From a virus: a DNA stretch of 22,795 bases. The stretch lies in IMG/VR virus record IMGVR_UViG_3300007735_000498, positions 1-22,795 of that record; one strand, 5' to 3'. The stretch's first letter is position 1. Every line of letters starts with the position of its first letter. Below, in pieces: positions 9,823 to 22,795 of this stretch. A program made the translations under genes and the position numbers. The notes below the pieces were generated by a model. The model saw only the letters and a program-made list of their open reading frames with translations. It did not search any database and was not told the DNA's origin.

Positions 9823-12800
9823 TTAGTGAAAAAGATTATAATTCTTCCTTACAATATCTCTAAGATAGGCAATGTCATCAGGAAATCCAAATAAGAATTT
9901 ATCATATACTTGTGGGTCTTTAGTAACTTTGTTATATGGAAAATATTGTATATATGCCTCAACAAATTTATTGGATAAACTTTGGGAATCTCCAAAATTA
10001 TTTCTAATGACATTTAAAAACAATTCACAATATTTTAAATTACAAAACTGTATAGAATTTTCTAAATTTTGAAAAACCGCAATTGGTATTTGTTCGTTTT
10101 TCTTATTAATCACACACAAATATCCTTTACCAATAAGGTCATTTAAATTACCTCCAAATTTATCAGGTATATCTAAACTAACTTCAGCATAATTATAAAA
10201 TTGTCCTTTAAATGAATTTCCATTCCAAGAGCCGATGGCAAATAAATTATATATAATTTCTTGTCTTTCTTTACTGATTCCTAAATTAGTCATAGCACTT
10301 AGTACCATATCTTTAGAACTTTCAGTTTCAATTGGACTTATAAATGGATAATCACTGTATAAACTTGGAGTTGGTTTACACGCTTGAGTTTGAGCGACAG
10401 GTTTGTTGCCTAAGAAATTTGCAGATATTTTATCATTTGCCGCGATTGAATTTGTTAAAGGTAACTGAGATGGTTGTTGGTCTTGTTTTTGAGCGGTTTG
10501 AATACTGCTTAATATTTGTTTATTTATACTTTGTAATAATACATCAACGGTTGGGAATGTTGACACTTTTTGTCTTGTACCTGTAAAAGTAGTTCTAAAT
10601 GAATCTGTAGTAATTGTATGTGTTACTTCGTCAATTAAGAATGTTCCAGCAAATAATGGTACATTCCTAAGTGCGAAAAACATGGTTGGTTGAATCATTG
10701 CATTACCCATACAACTTACAGTAGCTCCATAACTTCTTTGTTTGTAAATGTTATATAAACTTACACTTTGTGATGTTGTACTAACTCCTTTAGATAGATT
10801 AGCCAAGTCGTATTCAGCCTTTAAAGATTCCGAGGTTGCCTGTCCAATGTCTTGTGAAATTTGAATACCCTCAAATACACTTTGATTTTGTAACCCAAAA
10901 TCAATGACAAACCCGCAAACTTTATTCGATAAAGCCTTATCTATATCGGTTTTTTTACTATCATCAATGAGTAATGTGTTATTTCCAGTTTTTTCAAAAT
11001 ATATACCATCATCATTGTAACCACTGATAGGGTCAGGATTATTTAAGTAATTTGATGGCACATCCGCATATTGACAAATATACTTAGTTCTTGAATCTTG
11101 GTAATCAACAGTGGTATATGTACCAAATAAAGAATTTGCAAAATCGTCAGGGTTATAAGGTTTGGGTGATAGTCCGGGTTTTTGTATGTTATAAAAATTT
11201 ATATAAGATGGCATTACAAACGGAACAAGATGAGCATCTCTTATTATACTGTCAATTAACACAAATAAACTAGTTTTTGGGTCAAGGCTCTTTAAATAAT
11301 CCTTAACTTTATAAACATCAACATAAACTTGATTTCCAATATCTTTATTAGCCCTATCAAAAAATAAAAAATCTTCAAACAATGTTTCGGTTTGGTAATT
11401 ATTACCCGCAACCCATTTATCATTTAGAGCTTTAAACATGTCATAATATTCAAATTTAGATTGACCACCTTCAGTTACATCCATATTACTTTCGTAATTT
11501 CCACCTTCACTGTACACAGGTAATTCCTTTTTCAATTTAATATCCAAACTTTGTAAAATATTGTCAGCCAATCTAGCTTTAGATTCTAAATTTGTCTTTA
11601 TAACTAAATTTTTAAATGTTTCTTTAGTAAACCCATTATATCTTGAGGTCGCATACATTTTAATAATTTCTGAAAAATTTTTAATATTTTCTTCATTGAA
11701 TCCAATATTAAAATCAGGGAAAAAATCTGTAATATACGAACCGTTATCCCCATAAACTAAGTTGTTTAGTGTTGAAAACCCAACATAAAGTTCAAGAGCT
11801 TTCCAAGTGTCAGGTTGGAATGTTTTTGAATTTTGCAATGTTGTACTTCCTCCACTAGTTGGTAAAGACCCTATTACATATGTCGATATATTATCTTTAG
11901 AATGTAACAATGGTGTGTCAGTAAACATGTAAAACTTCTTATAATCGAAGTTTTCAGGATTACCCTTTTTAATTATTAAATCATAGTTTATTGTTGATGG
12001 CAAATAATTAACAAAGTTTTTGATTTGGTCATTTTGAATCTTTTTAATTTGTTTATTTAAATCTAAAGATGTAACATCATCAAATACCAAATCAATGGTT
12101 AATGCCTCGATTAATATTTTTTGGAAGGTTAAACCGTCAATACTTTTTTTAGAACTTTGACTGAAGTTTTTAAAGTATTCTTCAAACATATCCAATTCTT
12201 TTTTAGTAAAAACTGCAAAAATTTCTTCAATATTTGTGTACGAATTGGTAGGGGTATTATCTAGTAAATCAAATGAATTTTGTAAAGTTTCATCTGATTT
12301 TATTTTTTTAAAATATTCTTTATACGTTGGTAATTTTATCGTGCTAGTTTTAAAATACCCATAATTGGGTGCTCCCCATAATAATCTTACAGAACCATCT
12401 AAAACTGATTGGTTATCAACAAAATCAAAATTATCTTTGACTATAGGTGTTGAGCCAGGTTTTAATCCCTCATATGCAGGTTGATTGACAATTGAACCAA
12501 AAGATGGTGTTGGTATATAATATTTTTTAGATGAGTCACTTTTTAACTCGTTTTCTATTATAATGGACCACCCTTTTAAATCTATTGTTTTATTCCCTTG
12601 TAATGCTAATATGTTTGAGGAGCTTGCATTTTTAAAAAGAATTTTTGCGGTCCCAACTTTTTCATTAATCTTATCTTGGATAGTAGTATTGTCTTGATAT
12701 ATGTTAGTACCATTAACAAAATAATAAAAGTCATTTAATAGTTTTGGATAAAATCCAACATTTTGTTTAACTAATGTTTGAGTAGTATTATTCGTTTGAG

Positions 12801-15800
12801 GTGTTTGAGTACTTTGTAATGTGAAGGTGTACGCACTATTTAAATACACGCCATCAATTACATACTCTTTTGCCTTGTTTGAGTTTATTGGGTCGTAATT
12901 TTGAGCAGCATTAAAACTTGTAAAAACTGAAGACATATAATCAGAAGTCCCTCCCGACAAAACACTACTTTTATATCTATTCCATATTGAGCCAATTTTA
13001 ATTACCCATAGTTTAGGTAACGCATGTACCGCTCCGAATTTTCTAAAAGTAGAAGCAATATAATCTAAATCATCTCCTGATGAACCGTTTTCTATTTTAT
13101 ATTTTTCCCTTAAAGTTGACAGAGGTAAACTATTGATAAACAAATAAGCCGCTTTCAAATATGCGTAATTTATATTTTGTCTATCATTTTCAACCCCTTC
13201 CTGTAAAGCATTAATGAAAAATGGAGTGTTTAACATGGATGTTGTTTTTTCATTTTTCCATAAACTACTCATATCACTTAATGTCCCTTCAGTAAAAACA
13301 TCATTAGTTTTCCTATTATTATAAAATTCATCAAGGTTAAATGAATCTGTGATGTCTATTAAATTCTTTAAAGTTTTAAAATTTGTAAAAGGTCTATTAC
13401 TTTTTTTATCACCAAAATTACCAAAAGCATTTTGACTTAAATAATTGGCAATTTTTTTAATATTTTTATTATATACTATCGATTTGTTCGTATTGAATAC
13501 TTTTGCAGGGTCAGAATTTTCTTTACCGTTTGAGAGGTTTTCTAAATTCCATTGTGATACAACAAACGGATATGTTGAGGTGGGTGGTACTACATTATTT
13601 TTATCTGACTTGATATAATTTTCAAATTTAGTTTCAGATTGAACTTCAACATTAATTGCTGGTAAATCTCGATTATAAATGTCAAAACTATTTTCGATAT
13701 TATTAGCCAAATATTCTGTCACAATATTACCATACTGATAGTTCAAATACTTTGGGTTACTAGTTGTTAGTTTAGTAGTCAAAACCTGTTCTAAAATTAT
13801 TGTTGAAGCCAAAGAAGTAGTTTTGAAAAAGTTTGGAACATCTATTGAATTAGATATAACTCCTTCTAAAAAATTTTTTACTTCAGAGTCAACTAAAAAA
13901 TCAATTAACTCATTATCAGTTTTTTCTATAAAATTATTATAATGTGAAATTAATCGTACTCTTTCAGCGTATTCTAATAAAATTTCAGATAAAATAACTT
14001 TACTATAAACAATGTTTGTTGGGAAAGTTTCAAATCCACTCACCAATAATCTATTTACTAAATCTAAATTAGTTTTCTTACCTGTTGTAACAGGTGGAAA
14101 ATTTCTTTGGATGTATCCTTTAACAAACTCTTCAACAAATTCAACCTCAGGCCAAATTTTATAATCTTTACCATTCGATAAGTTTATATATTTTGGGTCA
14201 CCAGGGTATTGTAACTCTATTTTTTTATCCCCGTTTACAGTTTTTTCAACCGCAAATTGAGGCCAAGGGTAAACAGGAAATCCTTCCCCTTTAATATCAT
14301 CAGGTACACCTTGTTTCTTTTTTGGATTGTCCCTTTCTTTAAAAGCATTTTCATGTACTTCGTTTAACAACCTAAGAAACCCTTCAGCCGAAGCCATAAT
14401 AACCGCAACTACATTTCTAATAGTCGGGTCAAATCCTGATTTATTTGAAGATTTAAGTAACTTTGAAAGTTTATCCTGTAAATCTTGTTGAATTTCTTCT
14501 TCCTTTTCACTTAACTTGGTTTCTATTTGAGATATTTTTTCATTAAACTCATTTGGTCCTGTCCAACTATATAGATTTGGTACGTTAGTTGCAGGAGCTT
14601 GTTGTCCTGAGGTATATGGTGATGTTGTAGAATTAACAATTGAGCTAAGTGAAACGTCAATTCTATTAGATTCTTCTTCTTCCGCACTAGGGAATAAATT
14701 CTTAATCTCTGTTTTTAAATTTTCTAATTGGTCCGCAGTAGGTTTAGCACCGGCATTTCTTTTTCTAAATGTTAATTCTGCATTATCTAATAGTATTTGA
14801 GAATTAGGGTTTGTATATAAAACTGTTGTTGGAATTAAATCCACCGTAGATATTGCATATTTACCAGATGAAAATGTTTTAACATTTTTTAATTGTAAAC
14901 TAAATTTACCAAAAATAGCAACCAACTCTCCAAATGCAGTAGTTTTTATTTCATCCTTTGTATTTGGTTTAAAAGTGTAGATTGGGACTTCTTGTCTAAA
15001 CCCATTACCATTTGTCGACTCTATTACATAATAATATGGATTTTCTAAATCCAAATATTTTATAACCCAAGATTCAGGAGAAACTGCAGTAATTACTGAT
15101 TTTCTGTAGTTAGATAAAATTTCTTTAAAGGTTGGGATATCGTTTAGAATATCCATTGAGATTGACCCAAAACTTTTTAATTTAGACGCAATAAAATTTT
15201 CTAAAACTGTAATTAACTGATTAACAGTTAATTCAGGAAAATCATTACTTATTAAACCTTTAGATTTATATTCTTTATAAACTTGTTGTATTTTTTCATA
15301 CCCTCTTTGTGAGAATTTAGTCACAGCATTCGCCCCTAATGATGGTAGATTAGTTGTTTGTCCTCCAACATTTTCAGTAGTTCTTCTAACATACATTTGC
15401 GGTAATGCTAAAATTTCACCAAAAGTTACATCATTTAACACACCAAAATTATAACCTATAAAATTCAAAGTTATCTCAAAATTTGAAGTACTTTGGTTAA
15501 AACTGGTTGCAAATTTTGTCAGTAAAAGTGGGTATCTAACCGCTTTACCATAAAAACCTTTTAGTGTTAAGTAAAAGGTTGGATAGGGTAAATTAAAAAA
15601 TGCTGAATATATACTTGAATTACCTTGTTCAAATAACGCCCTTCCTTTAGAATCTTCTAAACTAATAGATACTATAGGTGTTTGTGAACGACTAACTTTA
15701 AAATTAATTGCAGTTATTCCTAATAATTCACCATTTACAACATTTGATTCCTCAACATCTAATTGACTTTTAGTGTAATTAGTCGTTAAATAATCCTGAT

Positions 15801-16038
15801 TATTTGGTTTTAAAAAATTAATTTTTCCAACACCTATTTGAGTTAAACTTGTTTTGTCTTCTCCTGTAATTAATCTACTTCTAGGTTGTAAATTACATTC
15901 TAAGTTAGCATACATTATTAATTCCTCATGAGGTATATATCTGTCCTCATAACCCCCATCAGTTCTAAAAACTTTATTTGGATTAATTAAAAAAATATTA
16001 TTTATATCTGTTTCAATATAAATGTTTTTATCTGCCAT
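9823..16038 (-). CDS. Giant baseplate hub-like structural protein, 2071 aa
   Basis: Predicted centre of the tail tip. Near residues 1767-1827 it has the signature of the C-terminal half of phage D/VgrG/gp27-type hubs: SCMGNAMIQPTMFFALRNVP, then FAGTFLIDEVTHTITTDSFR and TTFTGTRQKV, a small beta domain of pattern G-x-P-x-x-x-G-x-Y-x-V-x-x-V-x-H. Residues about 112-205 form another beta-rich domain (SISLEDSKGRALFEQG, YPTFYLTLKGFYG, NFEITLNFIGYNFGVL) resembling tail-tube or baseplate folds. A charged coiled coil lies at about 495-530. The last 185 residues, after a Gln/Pro linker, form a separate unassigned domain. No membrane segment or signal is seen. The ATG at 16038 overlaps the end of the LysM gene by 11 bases. 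T4 gp27 has only about 390 residues, so much of this chain is lineage-specific. The hub role is inferred from the C-terminal signature and the gene order. Confidence 0.75.
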   Translation of the reverse strand: MADKNIYIETDINNIFLINPNKVFRTDGGYEDRYIPHEELIMYANLECNLQPRSRLITGEDKTSLTQIGVGKINFLKPNNQDYLTTNYTKSQLDVEESNVVNGELLGITAINFKVSRSQTPIVSISLEDSKGRALFEQGNSSIYSAFFNLPYPTFYLTLKGFYGKAVRYPLLLTKFATSFNQSTSNFEITLNFIGYNFGVLNDVTFGEILALPQMYVRRTTENVGGQTTNLPSLGANAVTKFSQRGYEKIQQVYKEYKSKGLISNDFPELTVNQLITVLENFIASKLKSFGSISMDILNDIPTFKEILSNYRKSVITAVSPESWVIKYLDLENPYYYVIESTNGNGFRQEVPIYTFKPNTKDEIKTTAFGELVAIFGKFSLQLKNVKTFSSGKYAISTVDLIPTTVLYTNPNSQILLDNAELTFRKRNAGAKPTADQLENLKTEIKNLFPSAEEEESNRIDVSLSSIVNSTTSPYTSGQQAPATNVPNLYSWTGPNEFNEKISQIETKLSEKEEEIQQDLQDKLSKLLKSSNKSGFDPTIRNVVAVIMASAEGFLRLLNEVHENAFKERDNPKKKQGVPDDIKGEGFPVYPWPQFAVEKTVNGDKKIELQYPGDPKYINLSNGKDYKIWPEVEFVEEFVKGYIQRNFPPVTTGKKTNLDLVNRLLVSGFETFPTNIVYSKVILSEILLEYAERVRLISHYNNFIEKTDNELIDFLVDSEVKNFLEGVISNSIDVPNFFKTTSLASTIILEQVLTTKLTTSNPKYLNYQYGNIVTEYLANNIENSFDIYNRDLPAINVEVQSETKFENYIKSDKNNVVPPTSTYPFVVSQWNLENLSNGKENSDPAKVFNTNKSIVYNKNIKKIANYLSQNAFGNFGDKKSNRPFTNFKTLKNLIDITDSFNLDEFYNNRKTNDVFTEGTLSDMSSLWKNEKTTSMLNTPFFINALQEGVENDRQNINYAYLKAAYLFINSLPLSTLREKYKIENGSSGDDLDYIASTFRKFGAVHALPKLWVIKIGSIWNRYKSSVLSGGTSDYMSSVFTSFNAAQNYDPINSNKAKEYVIDGVYLNSAYTFTLQSTQTPQTNNTTQTLVKQNVGFYPKLLNDFYYFVNGTNIYQDNTTIQDKINEKVGTAKILFKNASSSNILALQGNKTIDLKGWSIIIENELKSDSSKKYYIPTPSFGSIVNQPAYEGLKPGSTPIVKDNFDFVDNQSVLDGSVRLLWGAPNYGYFKTSTIKLPTYKEYFKKIKSDETLQNSFDLLDNTPTNSYTNIEEIFAVFTKKELDMFEEYFKNFSQSSKKSIDGLTFQKILIEALTIDLVFDDVTSLDLNKQIKKIQNDQIKNFVNYLPSTINYDLIIKKGNPENFDYKKFYMFTDTPLLHSKDNISTYVIGSLPTSGGSTTLQNSKTFQPDTWKALELYVGFSTLNNLVYGDNGSYITDFFPDFNIGFNEENIKNFSEIIKMYATSRYNGFTKETFKNLVIKTNLESKARLADNILQSLDIKLKKELPVYSEGGNYESNMDVTEGGQSKFEYYDMFKALNDKWVAGNNYQTETLFEDFLFFDRANKDIGNQVYVDVYKVKDYLKSLDPKTSLFVLIDSIIRDAHLVPFVMPSYINFYNIQKPGLSPKPYNPDDFANSLFGTYTTVDYQDSRTKYICQYADVPSNYLNNPDPISGYNDDGIYFEKTGNNTLLIDDSKKTDIDKALSNKVCGFVIDFGLQNQSVFEGIQISQDIGQATSESLKAEYDLANLSKGVSTTSQSVSLYNIYKQRSYGATVSCMGNAMIQPTMFFALRNVPLFAGTFLIDEVTHTITTDSFRTTFTGTRQKVSTFPTVDVLLQSINKQILSSIQTAQKQDQQPSQLPLTNSIAANDKISANFLGNKPVAQTQACKPTPSLYSDYPFISPIETESSKDMVLSAMTNLGISKERQEIIYNLFAIGSWNGNSFKGQFYNYAEVSLDIPDKFGGNLNDLIGKGYLCVINKKNEQIPIAVFQNLENSIQFCNLKYCELFLNVIRNNFGDSQSLSNKFVEAYIQYFPYNKVTKDPQVYDKFLFGFPDDIAYLRDIVRKNYNLFH

Positions 16039-16351
16039 AGTAATAATAATGTAATTCTAACGCTGAATTATAATCTAATAATGATGAATCCAAAGGAAAT
16101 GGTATATTTAAAACGGCATTATCAGATATTGATAATTCCGACCCTCCATAAATTGGATTTGCCTGTAAAATTAACCAACCAAAAAAAGGAGTGCCGTAAT
16201 AAAATTGAGATATTTTATCCAATCTTGATACTCCGAGTTTATAGATATATTTTTTATCAGTTCCTTTTTGAGGTAATTTAACATAAGGAATGTATGTTTG
16301 AACGTCCCCAACAATTAATTTTTGATATCTATTTAAATATTCATTAGCCAT
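16028..16351 (-). CDS. LysM-like baseplate wedge protein, T4 gp53-like
   Basis: A 107-residue protein with the pattern of tail LysM proteins. It has a beta strand (YIYKLGVSRLDKIS), then FYYGTPFFGWLILQANP (aromatic-rich, yYG..l.W.I...N) and a final ISDNAVLNIPFP. In T4 gp53 and P2 gpX-type proteins such modules join baseplate parts together rather than bind peptidoglycan. The start ATG (16349-16351) comes two bases after the stop of the 1548-aa gene, and its own TAA lies inside the first codons of the hub gene. Such close packing points to translational coupling and matched amounts. Its place between tape measure and hub is the canonical one. Confidence 0.8.
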   Translation of the reverse strand: MANEYLNRYQKLIVGDVQTYIPYVKLPQKGTDKKYIYKLGVSRLDKISQFYYGTPFFGWLILQANPIYGGSELSISDNAVLNIPFPLDSSLLDYNSALELHYYYYGR

Positions 16352-16353
16352 TA

Positions 16354-19300
16354 TTAGGAAAATTTCTTTTTATCGTTAAAATTTCTATCTGAACCTGAGT
16401 TTTCACTACTGTAGATATTAATTAATCTTCTTTTTTGAGAGTTTGTACCGGAATCCGTTTGGAAATTTAGTGTTCTGGTTTTACCCTTAATTGATTTATT
16501 ATCTCTTTGTGGATTATAATTTGAGTACGTTTGATATTCCGTCGATTGGAAAAACCCATTTATTACTTCCAATTCTTTTGTTTTTTCGGTATTAAAAATA
16601 CCAGCAATGTTATTTAATTCTGTCGTAAGGACATCTGAAAATGCTGAGTTATCAATTCCGTTTAGTAACGCCTCTTTAAATGTATTTCTTTTTCCACTAT
16701 CAATAATATCATTTGCAAAAAATGAATACATATAATTTAAAAATGTCCCAGGTTGTAATTCAGAATCATCAACAAAAGGTACAAAGTCACTCGGGGTGTC
16801 GCCAGTAACTCCCTGTTGTAATTTAGTTTGACCTTCTTTAGGATATACTTGTATTTCACCTAATTTAGTCACATATTCATTTAAATCATTGGATATAACT
16901 TGGTAATCCTGAACCATTTCAGAAATTTCAGTAGTTCCTGATAAATCATATATTTTAGGTTCTCCATTACTTAATATTTTACCATCAGTACTCGTAAGTA
17001 CTAAATCAAGTTTTCTAAAAATTTGAATGTATTCGGCTTGGGTATTTGCGAATGTGTCCATACTTGAATACAAACTATTAAATCCGTTTGACGCTTTATC
17101 CCTTACTAATTTTTTAAAATTATTACTGAACTTTACTCTTTCTAATGCAGGCATTTGTGCTTGTTCTAAAGCATTATTTAAATCATCAGTACCTAATGTA
17201 ATTTTACTAATAAGTAGTGTTTTAATTGTTGCAATTGCCAATGTTCCGGATGTTTTACCAAAAATTTTAGTGTCATATGCGGTACCATATTGATTAAGTT
17301 CTCCTGTATAGAATCTTCTTTTATTTGAGAATGCGTGGTAAAGTCCGTAACCATATTGGTCTATTGTTGATGATACAAACTTGGTTGTTTGGTCAAAATA
17401 ATTTTTTGTTTGGTCAACCATATTATCAAAAAAGTTAGTATAACTAATTGTACCTGTTTGAGCAGTTCCTGTAAATGGTGTACTTGTTAAAATTTGTCCA
17501 ATAGTATCACCTCCCTCATTCTGTGATAAATTACCAACATCATTAATATTCGCTAATGGTTCTCCATTAAATATTGAATTAACTAACTCGTTGTCAAGAG
17601 CAGTTGTATCTTCAGTAACGTCAGCCCTATCATCATACATTTCAGTGTTAGCATAATAGTTAAATGAAAGAGCATTTTGTAATTTTTCAACAGGTTCTTT
17701 CAAACCGTGACCTCCAATCATTTTAAAGTTAATAGATACTGATGCAATCATTGGTTGTACCCCAATACCTTCAGGATTGATATCTAAATTTTCATATGTA
17801 AAACTAACACTATCAGGTATTATTTTTGTATTATAAAAGTCACCAACTCTTAAAATTAATACAGGTGGTGTTCCGAAATTTGTATTAAACGCATCATTAT
17901 AAACTAATTCGCCACCCTTCCTAGTCGGCATTGTTTTACCAGGTCTAACACACTGATTTAAAAACGTAATTCTTGAATTTAATCCTTCGGGTGTAATTGA
18001 GTGAAACGCCGGATTAAAATATTTTATTTTTTGTTTTATTGAGTCGTATAAAAATGGACTATCAGTTTTTAACATTTCAAAGTAATCGGATTCAACCAAT
18101 AATTCTCTTAATATTTTTTTACTTATGTTTTTTGTTTTATCAATAATATCTGTTGTAGGTTGTGTTGGTAATCCGTTACTAATATTTGAATTTGGTCTAT
18201 TCTGATTATTTTGATTTTCCCCTTCAGGTTGTGGTGGGTTTGGAGTAACCGTAATATTAGTAATTAATGCCGAACTACATGCGTAACTTTTTATTGGGTC
18301 AGTATTATCATATTGATTACTATCACAAGTATATGTTGACTGAATGTTTGAATCAGGTGAACTTTTTGGATTAACACTACCAAGTATGTCTCCCAAAACC
18401 TCAATTTGTAAATCTCTATTTTCAATAAATTTATCAACCCCTAACGTTTCAAAAAATTGTATAATAGAATCATTAATATCCGAACTACTAACAGGTGATA
18501 ATGATGGTGTTACCTCTAATTTTACTTTTCCCTTTTTTTGTTGCAAAATATCAATTATTTGAGTTCTTATACTTTCTAACTCAATAAAATTATATTCAAC
18601 AATATTTTCTTTAAACCCAATTGATGAGTCGGTATTTAAGGTAGTTAGATTATTTACAACATCATCATAAACATCGTCATATAATTTTTTATTATCACCC
18701 TTAGGATTAAAATAAAATGAAATCCCATTCCAACCCGTAACGTCTAAATTTTCTGAATTATCAACTTCTTCAGCGTTATTTAAACCGTCAGAAACACCTT
18801 GTATATCTTCTTCATTAGCATTTGGATTATCTAATATTGATTGATACGCTTCTTGTATTGTACCTAAACTAAGTGAATTAAATTTTTTGGCAAGTTCATA
18901 TATATCATATTTTTTTAATCCCGCAAAAAACGAATTAATAACTTGTTGTGTGGTAAAATTATCTTCCTTATTTAATTCTTTATTAACAATTAAATTCATT
19001 ACCGACGGATAGTCAACAACAATTTTAAAAGTTAAACTACCACCTCTTGATGAGTTCTGATAAGTATAAATTGGCTCAGGTCTTCCTAAAAAATTAGTGG
19101 CATTCCACTGAGCACTTGAGTTATCTGAAAATGTTAAGTCATACGGAGGGAACCACATAATTCTACCTCCATTAGGTCCTTTTTCACAAGCAGGTAATTG
19201 TTCATATTCTGATGAACCCTTCCACGCTAAATTCTCAATTGAAAACATGTACTTTTTAACTTTCCCATCTTTAACACTTGTTCCTCCATTCTTATATGGT

Positions 19301-21000
19301 GTAATGTTTAAATTGTAAGTACTATCTAAAACAGAGTATGAAAATCTTCTAATATTCCCATTTGTCTCAGCACCTGAAGTATTGGCGATTGTACTTTGTA
19401 AATTTGAATATGTAAAATATGGGTTATCTTTAGCAAAAACTCTACCATATTCTTTACCTACTTCTTTACCTTTTTCGTTCACATATCTCTTAACTTTTGA
19501 ACCCTTTGTGATTTCTTTGTATCCATCCCAAAAAACTTTAGATACTTGATTCATTGCGTTACCCACATGTGCTAATCTATCTTTACCCCTATTAGGTGTT
19601 GAGTCAATAATTCTTTGTGTCGCATCAAGTATGGAGCCAGGTCTAAATTCGTAATCAGTTGATAACACTTGGTCAAAAGATGACCTTAGTGTGTTTGAGG
19701 CATTATTTTTACCAAATTTTTCCCCTCCTTCTCCAACTTTTTTAAATGCGTCTCTTGCTCTTCTTTTTTCCACCCATACAAACCCACCATCAAAAACAGG
19801 TCTTTCGTCATATGTTTTTGAAGCCATTCCAAATTGGAAATTTTGATTACCATCAAACAATGTCGCCAATTTATCAGGACCATAAACTGTTGTGGTGGTA
19901 ACAGTACCTTCAGCATTTTTAGGTACATCATCAGCCGGTGACATAATTAATGCTCCCGCCAAATTCTGATTACCAACGTAAAAATTTTCTTTTTTATCGT
20001 AGTTTGGTTTATACTTATTGTAATCCAAATTAGCAAATAATGCCGATTTTTGACCGCTACCTGTATTAGCTAAAAACTTTTGTGAAGGTGAATTACTATT
20101 TGATAAGTTCTTTAATCCTCTTTGTAATAATTGCCCCGCCTTTGTTGACCTTCTTTGTGGACTTTCAAAATAATCCCCTTCTATTGGTGACTGTGGATAA
20201 TAGGTACCTGTAATTCTTTGAGCCAATGAAAATGCTTGGTCTAATAGTCCGTCGGGTACAGTGATTTTCCAATTCTTATCTGTAAGTGGGACTTGTCCTG
20301 TAACAAATAATGAAATGTCAGGTTGATTTAAAATGTTTATTCTTCCTAACGAATTTTTCCTTACTTCTTCAAAAACTCTTTCTTCAAACGAAAACTTTAA
20401 TTGTTCCGCTCCAATTTTTTGGATGTATGAATCATTTTGAGTCGCTTGATTATTTGAGATAAGGTCCAGCATACTGTAAGTTCCCTGAACAAACTCAGGA
20501 TAAACTCCATTAAATTGTAAATCTTTTTGTACAATAACATCGGTAGTAATGTACATATCTTCGTAACCTTCGTTGGGTACGAATCGATTTAATATTTCAG
20601 AATTGTCAATGTAAAATTCATTAACTAAATCTAATTTAGCATCGCTATAATCATATTCTGACTTTGGTGGAAATACAGGAGTTGTCCCGTCAACATTGGT
20701 GACAGTATTAATTACATTTGCTAATGTAACTGTATTAATTAGGTCCGCGCCATCGACGTATTTTCCACCTTCTGAACCATACTTGTTAGGAATTGTTTCG
20801 TATTTTGCCTCAATTATAATACCTGTACTAATATTTTCAGTATCAATAATTGTATCATTAACTGATATCTGTGTCTCATAGTTAATTGGTTCTTGAGCCG
20901 GTGTAAAATTTCCAACCACATTGTATGGTGGCAAATTTTTAACCAACATTTTTTTTCTGAATTCTTCAGAACCTTGTAAACTAAGTTTGTTTTCAGACAT
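16354..21000 (-). CDS. Giant baseplate/tail structural protein, 1548 aa
   Basis: A very long protein encoded between tape measure and LysM genes. Two regions stand out. About residues 588-664 contain FSIENLAW, GGRIMWFPPYDLTFSDNS, FLGRPEPIYTYQNSSRGG and FKIVVDYPSVM, a beta-sandwich-like domain with a look common in baseplate proteins of large myoviruses. About residues 1030-1130 contain FGTPPVLILRVGDFYNTK, IPDSVSFTYE, NPEGIGVQPMIASVSINFK and MIGGHGLKEPVEKLQNALS, a second beta domain reminiscent of tube-initiator or baseplate proteins. Between and around them are Asn/Ser-rich spacers, including a Gln/Asn/Pro run near residue 930. There is no catalytic motif, signal or membrane segment. The leader holds TTTATATA 12 bases before the ATG. 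It is likely a distal-tail or wedge component joining tube, hub and outer baseplate; I cannot name a T4 equivalent. Confidence 0.7.
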   Translation of the reverse strand: MSENKLSLQGSEEFRKKMLVKNLPPYNVVGNFTPAQEPINYETQISVNDTIIDTENISTGIIIEAKYETIPNKYGSEGGKYVDGADLINTVTLANVINTVTNVDGTTPVFPPKSEYDYSDAKLDLVNEFYIDNSEILNRFVPNEGYEDMYITTDVIVQKDLQFNGVYPEFVQGTYSMLDLISNNQATQNDSYIQKIGAEQLKFSFEERVFEEVRKNSLGRINILNQPDISLFVTGQVPLTDKNWKITVPDGLLDQAFSLAQRITGTYYPQSPIEGDYFESPQRRSTKAGQLLQRGLKNLSNSNSPSQKFLANTGSGQKSALFANLDYNKYKPNYDKKENFYVGNQNLAGALIMSPADDVPKNAEGTVTTTTVYGPDKLATLFDGNQNFQFGMASKTYDERPVFDGGFVWVEKRRARDAFKKVGEGGEKFGKNNASNTLRSSFDQVLSTDYEFRPGSILDATQRIIDSTPNRGKDRLAHVGNAMNQVSKVFWDGYKEITKGSKVKRYVNEKGKEVGKEYGRVFAKDNPYFTYSNLQSTIANTSGAETNGNIRRFSYSVLDSTYNLNITPYKNGGTSVKDGKVKKYMFSIENLAWKGSSEYEQLPACEKGPNGGRIMWFPPYDLTFSDNSSAQWNATNFLGRPEPIYTYQNSSRGGSLTFKIVVDYPSVMNLIVNKELNKEDNFTTQQVINSFFAGLKKYDIYELAKKFNSLSLGTIQEAYQSILDNPNANEEDIQGVSDGLNNAEEVDNSENLDVTGWNGISFYFNPKGDNKKLYDDVYDDVVNNLTTLNTDSSIGFKENIVEYNFIELESIRTQIIDILQQKKGKVKLEVTPSLSPVSSSDINDSIIQFFETLGVDKFIENRDLQIEVLGDILGSVNPKSSPDSNIQSTYTCDSNQYDNTDPIKSYACSSALITNITVTPNPPQPEGENQNNQNRPNSNISNGLPTQPTTDIIDKTKNISKKILRELLVESDYFEMLKTDSPFLYDSIKQKIKYFNPAFHSITPEGLNSRITFLNQCVRPGKTMPTRKGGELVYNDAFNTNFGTPPVLILRVGDFYNTKIIPDSVSFTYENLDINPEGIGVQPMIASVSINFKMIGGHGLKEPVEKLQNALSFNYYANTEMYDDRADVTEDTTALDNELVNSIFNGEPLANINDVGNLSQNEGGDTIGQILTSTPFTGTAQTGTISYTNFFDNMVDQTKNYFDQTTKFVSSTIDQYGYGLYHAFSNKRRFYTGELNQYGTAYDTKIFGKTSGTLAIATIKTLLISKITLGTDDLNNALEQAQMPALERVKFSNNFKKLVRDKASNGFNSLYSSMDTFANTQAEYIQIFRKLDLVLTSTDGKILSNGEPKIYDLSGTTEISEMVQDYQVISNDLNEYVTKLGEIQVYPKEGQTKLQQGVTGDTPSDFVPFVDDSELQPGTFLNYMYSFFANDIIDSGKRNTFKEALLNGIDNSAFSDVLTTELNNIAGIFNTEKTKELEVINGFFQSTEYQTYSNYNPQRDNKSIKGKTRTLNFQTDSGTNSQKRRLINIYSSENSGSDRNFNDKKKFS

Positions 21001-21047: not shown

Positions 21048-22795
21048 TTAAACTTTGGAGAATTCTAAAGCTGCTTTGATTTTATTTTGTAAATCAGGAC
21101 TGCTTTTTATTGCGTCTGCAATACGATTACCTAAGGCAGTTGCCTCATTCATACCTAAATTACCCAAATTAGCATTATTATCTAGCATAACTTTAAATGT
21201 TACCTCACCTTCAACCTTACTTTGGTTTGTAATAGTAGTATTAGTATTATTTGTAATAGTATCGTTTACTGATAATTGTTGTGACTTGGACATTAATCCT
21301 GTCCCTCCAATAACTAAATCATTCTCATCAAATTTTGTAATTCCTTGACCGGGTCTCCAAATAAAATCTTTACTTCCAGTTGCAGTGTCAATTGCGTTAG
21401 TAAATTTATCTATACTTTTAATTAAATTTTCATGAGTAATCCCAATTTCGTCTAAAGATTTTCCCAAAATTGGTAATTTGTTACCTATCTCAATTAAAGT
21501 GTCCACCTGAGGTTGTATTACCGATTTAGTAATTACATCACCAATATCACCTCCTAAATCTTTCATACCCCCAATAATTCCTCCAAAATCCCCTTTAGCT
21601 ATTGCGTCAACAATTGAAGTTAAATTTTTTGATGTATCATTTAAAGTTTTAATAAGTTTTTCATTATTTAAATTTACGTTTTTTATAGTCTCTTGAGTTT
21701 TAATATCAACACTGTTTAACGCTTTGTCTAAATATAACTCTCCAACTTGGGACCCAGCAACTGACATAGGAATTGCATTTTTGAATGCGTCAATTTTAGC
21801 AATTATTTGGTCAGCCTTTCCTAGTTGTTCTTTAGCTAAATCAATCATTTTTTGTTCAGGGGAATCTCCTTCCTCACCACTTTGATTTTCCAAAAATTTT
21901 TTAATTTCCCCCTCACTTCCTTTTAATTCATCTAAAGTTTTTTTAATAGTTTGACCACTTTCATCTTTAAATTCAATTTGGTATTTTCCGCTTTTTTTAT
22001 CTAATTTTGACAAATTAGCAATTTGTTCTTGTTGTTCTTTTGTAAAATCTAAACCTGAAAAATTTATTTCAGACAACTTTTTTTTCAATTTAGAACCCTC
22101 AATACCCATGTTAAACATCGTCTTTTCACTATAACCTAAAGCATCTCCTATTGCTTTAATCTCACGTCTAGCGCCAGGCATTATTTGAAAAGATTTTGTT
22201 TTTTCATCAAAATAAGTGTACTTTTCCATCAATTTAGATAATTGATTTTGTAACTCAGGTACATTATTTTGAGCTAAATCCATTAATCTTAGTGGGTCCG
22301 CCAATTGACTTGTTGCCCCTCCTAATCGTTGTAAAGCATTCGCAGTTTCAATCGCGTTTTCAGGACTAAGTAATTTTTCGGCCAAACTAAAAGTTTCACC
22401 CATATCAATTCTAAACATGGCAGCCTTTGCCGCCATTTTAGCTAAACCACTAACTCCACCTTCAAATGTATATTTATTTAACTTATCTAAGTTATTTGTG
22501 ACTAAAGAAGTAACCGCTCTAGCATTAACCCCCATATTTTGAGCAATTTTTTGGGTTTTATACATCTGTTCAGTTATTTGTTCAGCTTCATATCCGGCGT
22601 CCATAAAATTTTCTAATAATGTTGCAGATTGGATTCCCGTTACTTTTTGAGTTGCAACAAGTCCTTCTATTACTTCTTTACTTGCAACTATGTTTTTTCC
22701 AGATTTTGTGGCTAAATCTTGTTGGATGGCCGTCATGTCTTCTAAAGACCCTCCCATTAACAAAACTTCGGGTGACGCTTTAGCAAAATTTTCTT
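21048..22795 (-). CDS. Tail tape-measure protein, C-terminal part (5'-partial)
   Basis: Sets tail length and fills the tail tube before DNA ejection. The frame is open to the right edge, so the N-terminus lies outside; 581 residues are visible, beginning ENFAKASPEVL. The visible part is largely helical with Ala-, Gln- and Lys-rich amphipathic stretches (for example KMAAKAAMFRIDMGETFSLA and NALQRLGGATSQLADPLRL), charged coiled-coil segments, and a Gly-rich hinge (GDFGGIIGGMKDLGGDIGDV). It ends in an Asn/Thr-rich linker (DTITNNTNTTITNQSK) and a terminal domain of EGEVTFKVMLDN plus a helix. This pattern and its place upstream of the baseplate genes fit tape-measure proteins; T4 gp29 is about 590 residues, and this one is longer. 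A TTG at 22763 is in frame but there is no reason to take it as the start. Confidence 0.8.
   Translation of the reverse strand, partial: ENFAKASPEVLLMGGSLEDMTAIQQDLATKSGKNIVASKEVIEGLVATQKVTGIQSATLLENFMDAGYEAEQITEQMYKTQKIAQNMGVNARAVTSLVTNNLDKLNKYTFEGGVSGLAKMAAKAAMFRIDMGETFSLAEKLLSPENAIETANALQRLGGATSQLADPLRLMDLAQNNVPELQNQLSKLMEKYTYFDEKTKSFQIMPGARREIKAIGDALGYSEKTMFNMGIEGSKLKKKLSEINFSGLDFTKEQQEQIANLSKLDKKSGKYQIEFKDESGQTIKKTLDELKGSEGEIKKFLENQSGEEGDSPEQKMIDLAKEQLGKADQIIAKIDAFKNAIPMSVAGSQVGELYLDKALNSVDIKTQETIKNVNLNNEKLIKTLNDTSKNLTSIVDAIAKGDFGGIIGGMKDLGGDIGDVITKSVIQPQVDTLIEIGNKLPILGKSLDEIGITHENLIKSIDKFTNAIDTATGSKDFIWRPGQGITKFDENDLVIGGTGLMSKSQQLSVNDTITNNTNTTITNQSKVEGEVTFKVMLDNNANLGNLGMNEATALGNRIADAIKSSPDLQNKIKAALEFSKV

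Follow-up and report, generated by a model that had tools for sequence, protein, structure and literature searches.

A probable giant tail-tip hub, with a long insertion and a lysozyme-fold end, in uncultured T4-like phages

Tail-tip hubs of the T4 gp27 type – P2 gpD, Mu gp44, VgrG and the hubs of extracellular contractile injection systems (eCIS) and pyocins among them – share one plan: a tail-tube domain (domain I) followed by domains II–IV, which include a second tail-tube domain. In T5 pb3 and in the hub, or megatron, of gene-transfer agents (GTAs) the corresponding linker carries insertions, and the T5 insertion closes the tube (PMC10038345); the megatron of roseophage R4C bears peripheral and carbohydrate-binding domains (PMC10276861). 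Hubs may also be fused to lysins: gp15 of the contractile Anabaena phage A-1(L), ~900 residues long, carries a lysozyme domain besides endoglucanase and peptidase domains whose activity has been shown, and in the same phage a LysM protein bridges hub and wedge (PMC10966104). Here we describe a protein of 2071 residues that is in all likelihood the central tail-tip hub of a contractile-tailed, T4-like (Far-T4/RM378-like) uncultured phage. Its gene lies in the viral record IMGVR_UViG_3300007735_000498, the whole of which – 22.8 kb – was analysed and is referred to as the window (Table 1). The protein shares the domain plan of the gp27-type hubs and differs from them in two respects: an insertion of ~1,320 residues after domain I, and a lysozyme fold fused to its C-terminus.

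Table 1. Features of the hub gene and its neighbours in the window (domains as predicted)
Feature	Residues	Positions	Strand	Basis
Giant baseplate hub gene (P0001), 2071 residues		9823..16038	minus	ATG at 16038; 91 full-length relatives; purifying selection
Tail-tube fold, hub domain I	36-198	15445..15933	minus	VIA-align matches of N half
Insertion, ~1,320 residues, largely helical, conserved in family	199-1520	11479..15444	minus	Half models; includes helical hairpin 498-567
Remaining hub domains (II-IV) with second tail-tube domain	1521-1829	10552..11478	minus	VIA-align and Foldseek
Hub signature, most conserved segment of family	1774-1820	10579..10719	minus	Profile match to LR756508 hub and RM378 950-residue protein here
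FlgJ/GH73-type lysozyme-superfamily domain	1907-2071	9826..10320	minus	pLDDT 82-96; VIA-align matches
gp53/LysM-like wedge-hub linker, 107 residues, separate gene directly upstream of hub		16028..16351	minus	Profile matches
1548-residue protein		16354..21000	minus	Conserved synteny; profile match to immuto 716-residue protein
C-terminal part of probable tape measure protein; record ends within the gene		21048..22793	minus	Gene position

Two parts of a probable hub in one chain

That the open reading frame (ORF) is a real gene is indicated by three observations. Under a model of independent, identically distributed bases the chance that so long a frame stays open at 29% GC is ~10^-82; divergence from two relatives (67% protein identity) is 0.26/0.18/0.46 at codon positions 1/2/3, which, on these alignments, is the pattern of a gene under purifying selection; and 91 full-length relatives were found in IMG/VR contigs, almost all of them uninterrupted ORFs of 1918–2282 residues. 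The original prediction, made from the letters of the window, had placed a hub-like protein at exactly these coordinates; the strand is minus, and the plus-strand frame over the same positions is full of stops. Its estimate of about five times the size of T4 gp27 (391 residues) is correct, and the hub signature that it saw near the end of the chain was found there, with VSCMGNAMIQP at residues 1774–1784 and VTHTITTDSFRTTFTG at 1805–1820, both within the block where conservation is highest.

AlphaFold2 models were built as two halves (residues 1–1060 and 1011–2071), each with 56 aligned relatives and as monomers; the mean predicted local distance difference test (pLDDT) score was 74 for the N half and 76 for the C half. 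Evidence that the chain contains a hub came firstly from a Foldseek comparison of the C half with the PDB, in which hubs occupied nearly all top ranks (E 0.02 and worse), among them those of diffocin, N. meningitidis (3d37), T4 (gp27), phiTE, eCIS and VgrG. VIA-align superposed residues ~1551–1826 (~541–816 of the model) on the PVC hub 6j0m at 129–352 (Z 8.5; 4.2 Å over 139 residues), on pyocin R2 6u5h (Z 8.1) and the hubs of Pam3 (Z 7.7) and Milano (Z 7.4), on T4 gp27 1k28_D (Z 6.9) and Mu gp44 (Z 6.6), and also on VgrG. In the N half, residues 36–198 matched VgrG1 4mtk at 5–95 (Z 8.2; 3.2 Å over 91 residues), 3d37 at 8–94 (Z 7.8) and the PVC hub at 3–105 (Z 7.6). This tail-tube fold is common to tube, initiator and terminator proteins and is alone not hub-specific; wherever the target is a hub, it aligns with the first domain. 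Z scores of 7–9 can by themselves arise by chance, since unrelated models reach such values.

The two matches to the PVC hub are complementary, which indicates a whole canonical hub that is broken up by ~1,320 residues where ordinary hubs have a short linker. The same complementary ranges set the insertion between the two tail-tube domains, as in hubs of the T5 pb3 type. A gp27/gpD-like fold near residues 1767–1827 together with an N-terminal tube-like fold, the outcome that had been proposed as support for a hub, was thus obtained from the two half models taken together.

The hub call rests on the dominance of hubs in the fold list, on these complementary ranges and on synteny. Like the genes of T4 gp27-type hubs, P0001 stands beside a gp53-like gene and the tape measure region, and the order tape measure – ~1600 residues – gp53-like – ~2000 residues is kept in larger relatives. 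A matching order is seen in LR756508, a 484-kb uncultured phage genome with a hub of 721 residues, and in Flavobacterium phage immuto, the closest cultured phage found to have it, where a 938-residue protein annotated as a carboxypeptidase takes the place of the hub; in Rhodothermus phage RM378 the order is partial, a short 72-residue gene lying beside a 950-residue one. Profile links at the hub, gp53 and large-protein positions are weak and consistent: each of the three profiles ranks its syntenic partner first among ~29 candidates. For the hub part the LR756508 hub comes first (E 9.6e-5) and the RM378 950-residue protein second (E 0.004), both matches falling on the signature segment; the immuto 938-residue protein was not picked by this profile among the same candidates, and tblastn connects it instead with the LR756508 hub. 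These three hubs are a half to a third as long as the one described here, with a shorter insertion and a different lysin or none.

Several points weigh against a hub. The fold matches are moderate (Foldseek E 0.02–0.4; Z 7–9), and the halves were modelled separately, as monomers, with predicted template modelling (pTM) scores of 0.49 and 0.42. Profile comparison with T4 proteins (hhalign) gives the hub part no link to gp27 and links the N part to gp27 at E 0.03 only. The full-size protein, moreover, is known only from contigs of uncultured phages.

The insertion and the surrounding baseplate

The remaining baseplate genes, for which the window is too short, were counted in 12 contigs of 86–256 kb that carry the giant hub. 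Separate genes for gp25 and for Baseplate_J (gp6) are present in all 12, the latter over the curated cut-off in 11 contigs and below it in one. A separate gp5-like spike of ~500 residues occurs in 8 of the 12 (in G002 as two pieces): its N-terminus matches T4 gp5, the best of 23 T4 proteins by hhalign (E 0.0024), and it also matches phrog_430, 'baseplate hub subunit and tail lysozyme' (E 0.026). The spike was picked up via PF04717 and hhalign to T4 gp5; Pfam Gp5_OB and PAAR gave no match in the relatives and were found in the T4 control. Contractile sheath and tube genes are present in the 256-kb relative (G001). Wedge genes, and in most contigs the spike gene, thus remain separate in the relatives and a T4-like division of labour persists; fusion is limited to the C-terminal lysozyme-like domain, a hub-plus-lysin arrangement.

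Other proteins encoded by G001 deserve mention. Its tail sheath (L120:6372-9758) reaches 1129 residues, with the best sheath match at 912–1127, so that further tail proteins of the group seem enlarged. Next after gp6 comes a protein of 1704 residues (L122:2206-7317) that matches nothing in PHROGs and may occupy the gp7/gp8 place in the wedge. A shared N-terminal stretch, M-KKIKLTESDLYRIVRKVLLEQEEE, begins otherwise different proteins (L120:3422, L121:2426, L121:7592, L121:16670 and L127:7140) and is found also in L124 and L119; it resembles in kind the capsid-targeting sequence of T4, and by that analogy is a possible head-packaging tag.

The insertion has no Pfam or PHROGs match and lies outside the residues covered by the fold matches of both half models; its profiles, compared with those of the T4 wedge proteins, gave no match. 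Conserved motifs include NTPYF, GSIWHRY and ITDFF. The original prediction had described a coiled coil and over 1000 residues without recognisable family: in the N-half model a helical hairpin (498–529 and 540–567) lies close to the proposed coiled coil, and no Pfam family covers the middle of the chain.

We propose that residues ~36–198, as first tail-tube domain, and ~1521–1829, as middle domains and second tail-tube domain, form a gp27-type hub, three copies of which would build a pseudo-sixfold ring capping the tail tube. The insertion would then sit about where T5 pb3 and GTA hubs carry theirs, and is probably a large collar that encircles the hub or lies beneath it, bracing the wedges or touching the cell envelope. 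By analogy the T5 pb3 and GTA hubs and the R4C megatron may offer the best functional models for it. Unlike T5 pb3 and the GTA hub, the protein belongs to a contractile phage with a separate gp5-like spike, and its insertion is much larger and not necessarily related to theirs.

A different function for the insertion is conceivable on the same hub. The R4C megatron, with its peripheral and carbohydrate-binding domains, is a precedent for an insertion made of domains that bind the envelope or a receptor (PMC10276861), and its chain 8gtc_M appears in the list of hub matches. We nonetheless think this unlikely: no carbohydrate-binding or adhesin family matches, the insertion is largely helical and conserved, unlike fast-changing receptor binders, and several large, fibre-like-looking genes lie downstream of gp6. 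It is distinctly unlikely that the insertion is a plug and gate that closes the tube, like the domain-II insertion of T5 pb3, and opens on host contact. The hubs of T5 and DT57C do appear among the matches of the C half; against this, the relatives have a gp5-like OB spike as a gene of its own, which is how contractile tails are usually closed, and ~1,320 residues are far beyond the needs of a plug.

Two further readings question the hub itself or its division of labour. Some other tail-tube-fold protein with similar beta domains, such as an initiator or distal tail protein, would fit an N-terminal fold that many tail proteins share and Z scores that are moderate; it is made very improbable by a C half whose top-ranked matches are hubs rather than initiators or terminators and extend over hub domains II–IV, and by a gene position that is that of the hub in immuto, RM378 and LR756508. 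Identification of the protein as a tape measure or a fibre was rejected. Least probable of all is that hub, wedge and other baseplate roles are joined in one chain that replaces the multi-protein baseplate, as the original prediction had supposed: the size of the protein invites it and a lysozyme-fold domain is indeed fused, but the separate gp25, gp6 and spike genes counted above, the gp53-like gene beside the hub and an insertion that fits no T4 wedge protein largely refute it. Of that prediction, then, the hub stands – on tube fold, gp27-type fold and synteny – and the multi-role fusion does not.

The C-terminal lysozyme-like domain

Residues 1907–2071 were matched by VIA-align to a type VI secretion system effector (4kt3, the best at Z 7.9), Listeria Auto (3fi7, Z 7.7), SPH1045 (3vwo, Z 7.6) and FlgJ (5dn5, Z 6.6). 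The position where the catalytic Glu is expected, at the end of the first catalytic helix, is Gly1936, an equivalence taken from motif and VIA range, not from residue-by-residue superposition; the same column holds Glu in 7 of 50 relatives and Asn in 22. Family members that retain the Glu include L073 and L104. Judged from this substitution, the domain has probably lost catalysis in the 2071-residue protein, and it may bind peptidoglycan instead of cutting it. Cys1887 and Cys1975 are near-invariant among relatives, and because of this a disulfide between them is suggested. On the arrangement that we propose, a flexible linker would lead to the domain, which would be exposed beside the spike, probably disulfide-linked, and would occupy the place of the M23 peptidase or VanY carboxypeptidase of relatives.

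The nature of the terminal domain varies. One deep branch of relatives has an M23 peptidase at the end of the hub, and the 938-residue immuto protein a C-terminal VanY domain. A third kind, with the motif GP.H.GPS...G.ALS..L...L.L..GDVVYF, is seen at the hub C-termini of L024, L019, L026 and L028 and differs from both the FlgJ-type and the M23 domains. In the RM378 950-residue protein (L129:7355-10207) a transglycosylase-like stretch, NVIKENESGGNY...GAYQFTETTW, can be discerned by eye in mid-chain, without a Pfam match.

Fusion of hub and lysin has precedent; the unusual point is that the domain is kept although its catalysis has apparently been lost. The nearest parallel is A-1(L) gp15, likewise a hub of a contractile phage fused to cell-wall hydrolase domains, with the bridging LysM protein of that phage recalling the LysM-like gp53 neighbour here (PMC10966104). 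Unlike gp15, the present protein has a single FlgJ-type domain with the catalytic Glu replaced, and a giant insertion besides.

Neighbouring genes, family and significance

For the 107-residue protein family upstream of the hub, T4 gp53 is the best of 23 T4 proteins (hhalign, E 0.001); the protein also matches the syntenic 101-residue protein of immuto (hhalign, E 8e-4) and phrog_7145, a baseplate wedge family (E 0.014). The 1548-residue protein beyond it has no Pfam match; the 716-residue protein of immuto is the best of 29 candidates by profile comparison (E 0.005), and relative to this syntenic gene it too is much enlarged. It is a probable tube-initiator or cap-region protein. The product of the gene cut by the end of the record is probably the tape measure protein, a call made from its position before the 1548-residue gene; the listed large relatives show the same placing, and so does immuto, whose equivalent gene is annotated as tape measure. 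Downstream of the hub are proteins of 74 and 224 residues and then replication genes: a gp32-like single-stranded DNA-binding protein, and ParB-like, UvsX-like and 5'-3' exonuclease genes.

Scans of IMG/VR returned at least 586 stretches related to the hub protein. In two of the relatives the gene is broken, split into two frames in L022 (9959-15740) and fragmented in L034 (10568-15169), probably through sequencing or assembly errors. Pfam gave no hub-family match for the 2071-residue protein, and the sole PHROGs match was a sub-threshold one to phrog_52, 'tail protein' (E 0.067, residues 1773–1819). Sequence and profile searches of the PDB returned nothing relevant; tblastn of 50,697 phage records found no relative of the hub protein, of a distant member or of the 1548-residue neighbour. 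When ten genomes (T4-like, cyanophage and RM378) were searched by profile, the sole match at E<=1 was a weak one in LR756508, which led to the 721-residue hub of that genome. No relative was found in bacterial genome contigs, which therefore provide no evidence of host or prophage; by analogy with immuto and RM378 only, hosts related to Bacteroidota may be supposed.

Structural searches added two proteins that match much of the C half, both unannotated or named only lysozyme: A0A6J5L837 of an uncultured Caudovirales phage (Foldseek E 4e-84, 37% identity) and A0A8S5LAH1, the 'Lysozyme' of Myoviridae ctPuP5 (E 2e-19, 18% identity). In the papers searched we found neither a hub analysis of these two nor a description of the 2071-residue protein. 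As far as these searches reach, it belongs to a large, previously undescribed family of aquatic phage proteins, and the phages that carry the giant hub probably stand near the Far-T4/RM378-like relatives of T4 (PMC4360716).

The hub fold itself is known; the variation on it is a giant insertion together with a lysin domain that appears disarmed in most members, in a group that is abundant and uncultured. We suggest, tentatively, that the T4-like phages include an abundant, uncultured branch which builds its tail tip on a hub of ~2,000 residues in which a 1,300-residue insertion is a new module – a collar, gate or envelope-contact device – absent from solved tails, and a disarmed lysozyme is reused for cell-wall binding. 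Unannotated proteins of ~2,000 residues that belong to no Pfam family would become recognisable as tail-tip hubs, providing an annotation handle for the tail modules of Far-T4-like aquatic phages. A hub, it appears, can grow greatly while the rest of a T4-type baseplate stays modular, and the lysins at its end, exchanged and apparently decaying – M23, VanY, and FlgJ-type with or without Glu – offer a testable example, in phage, of an enzyme becoming a binding part.

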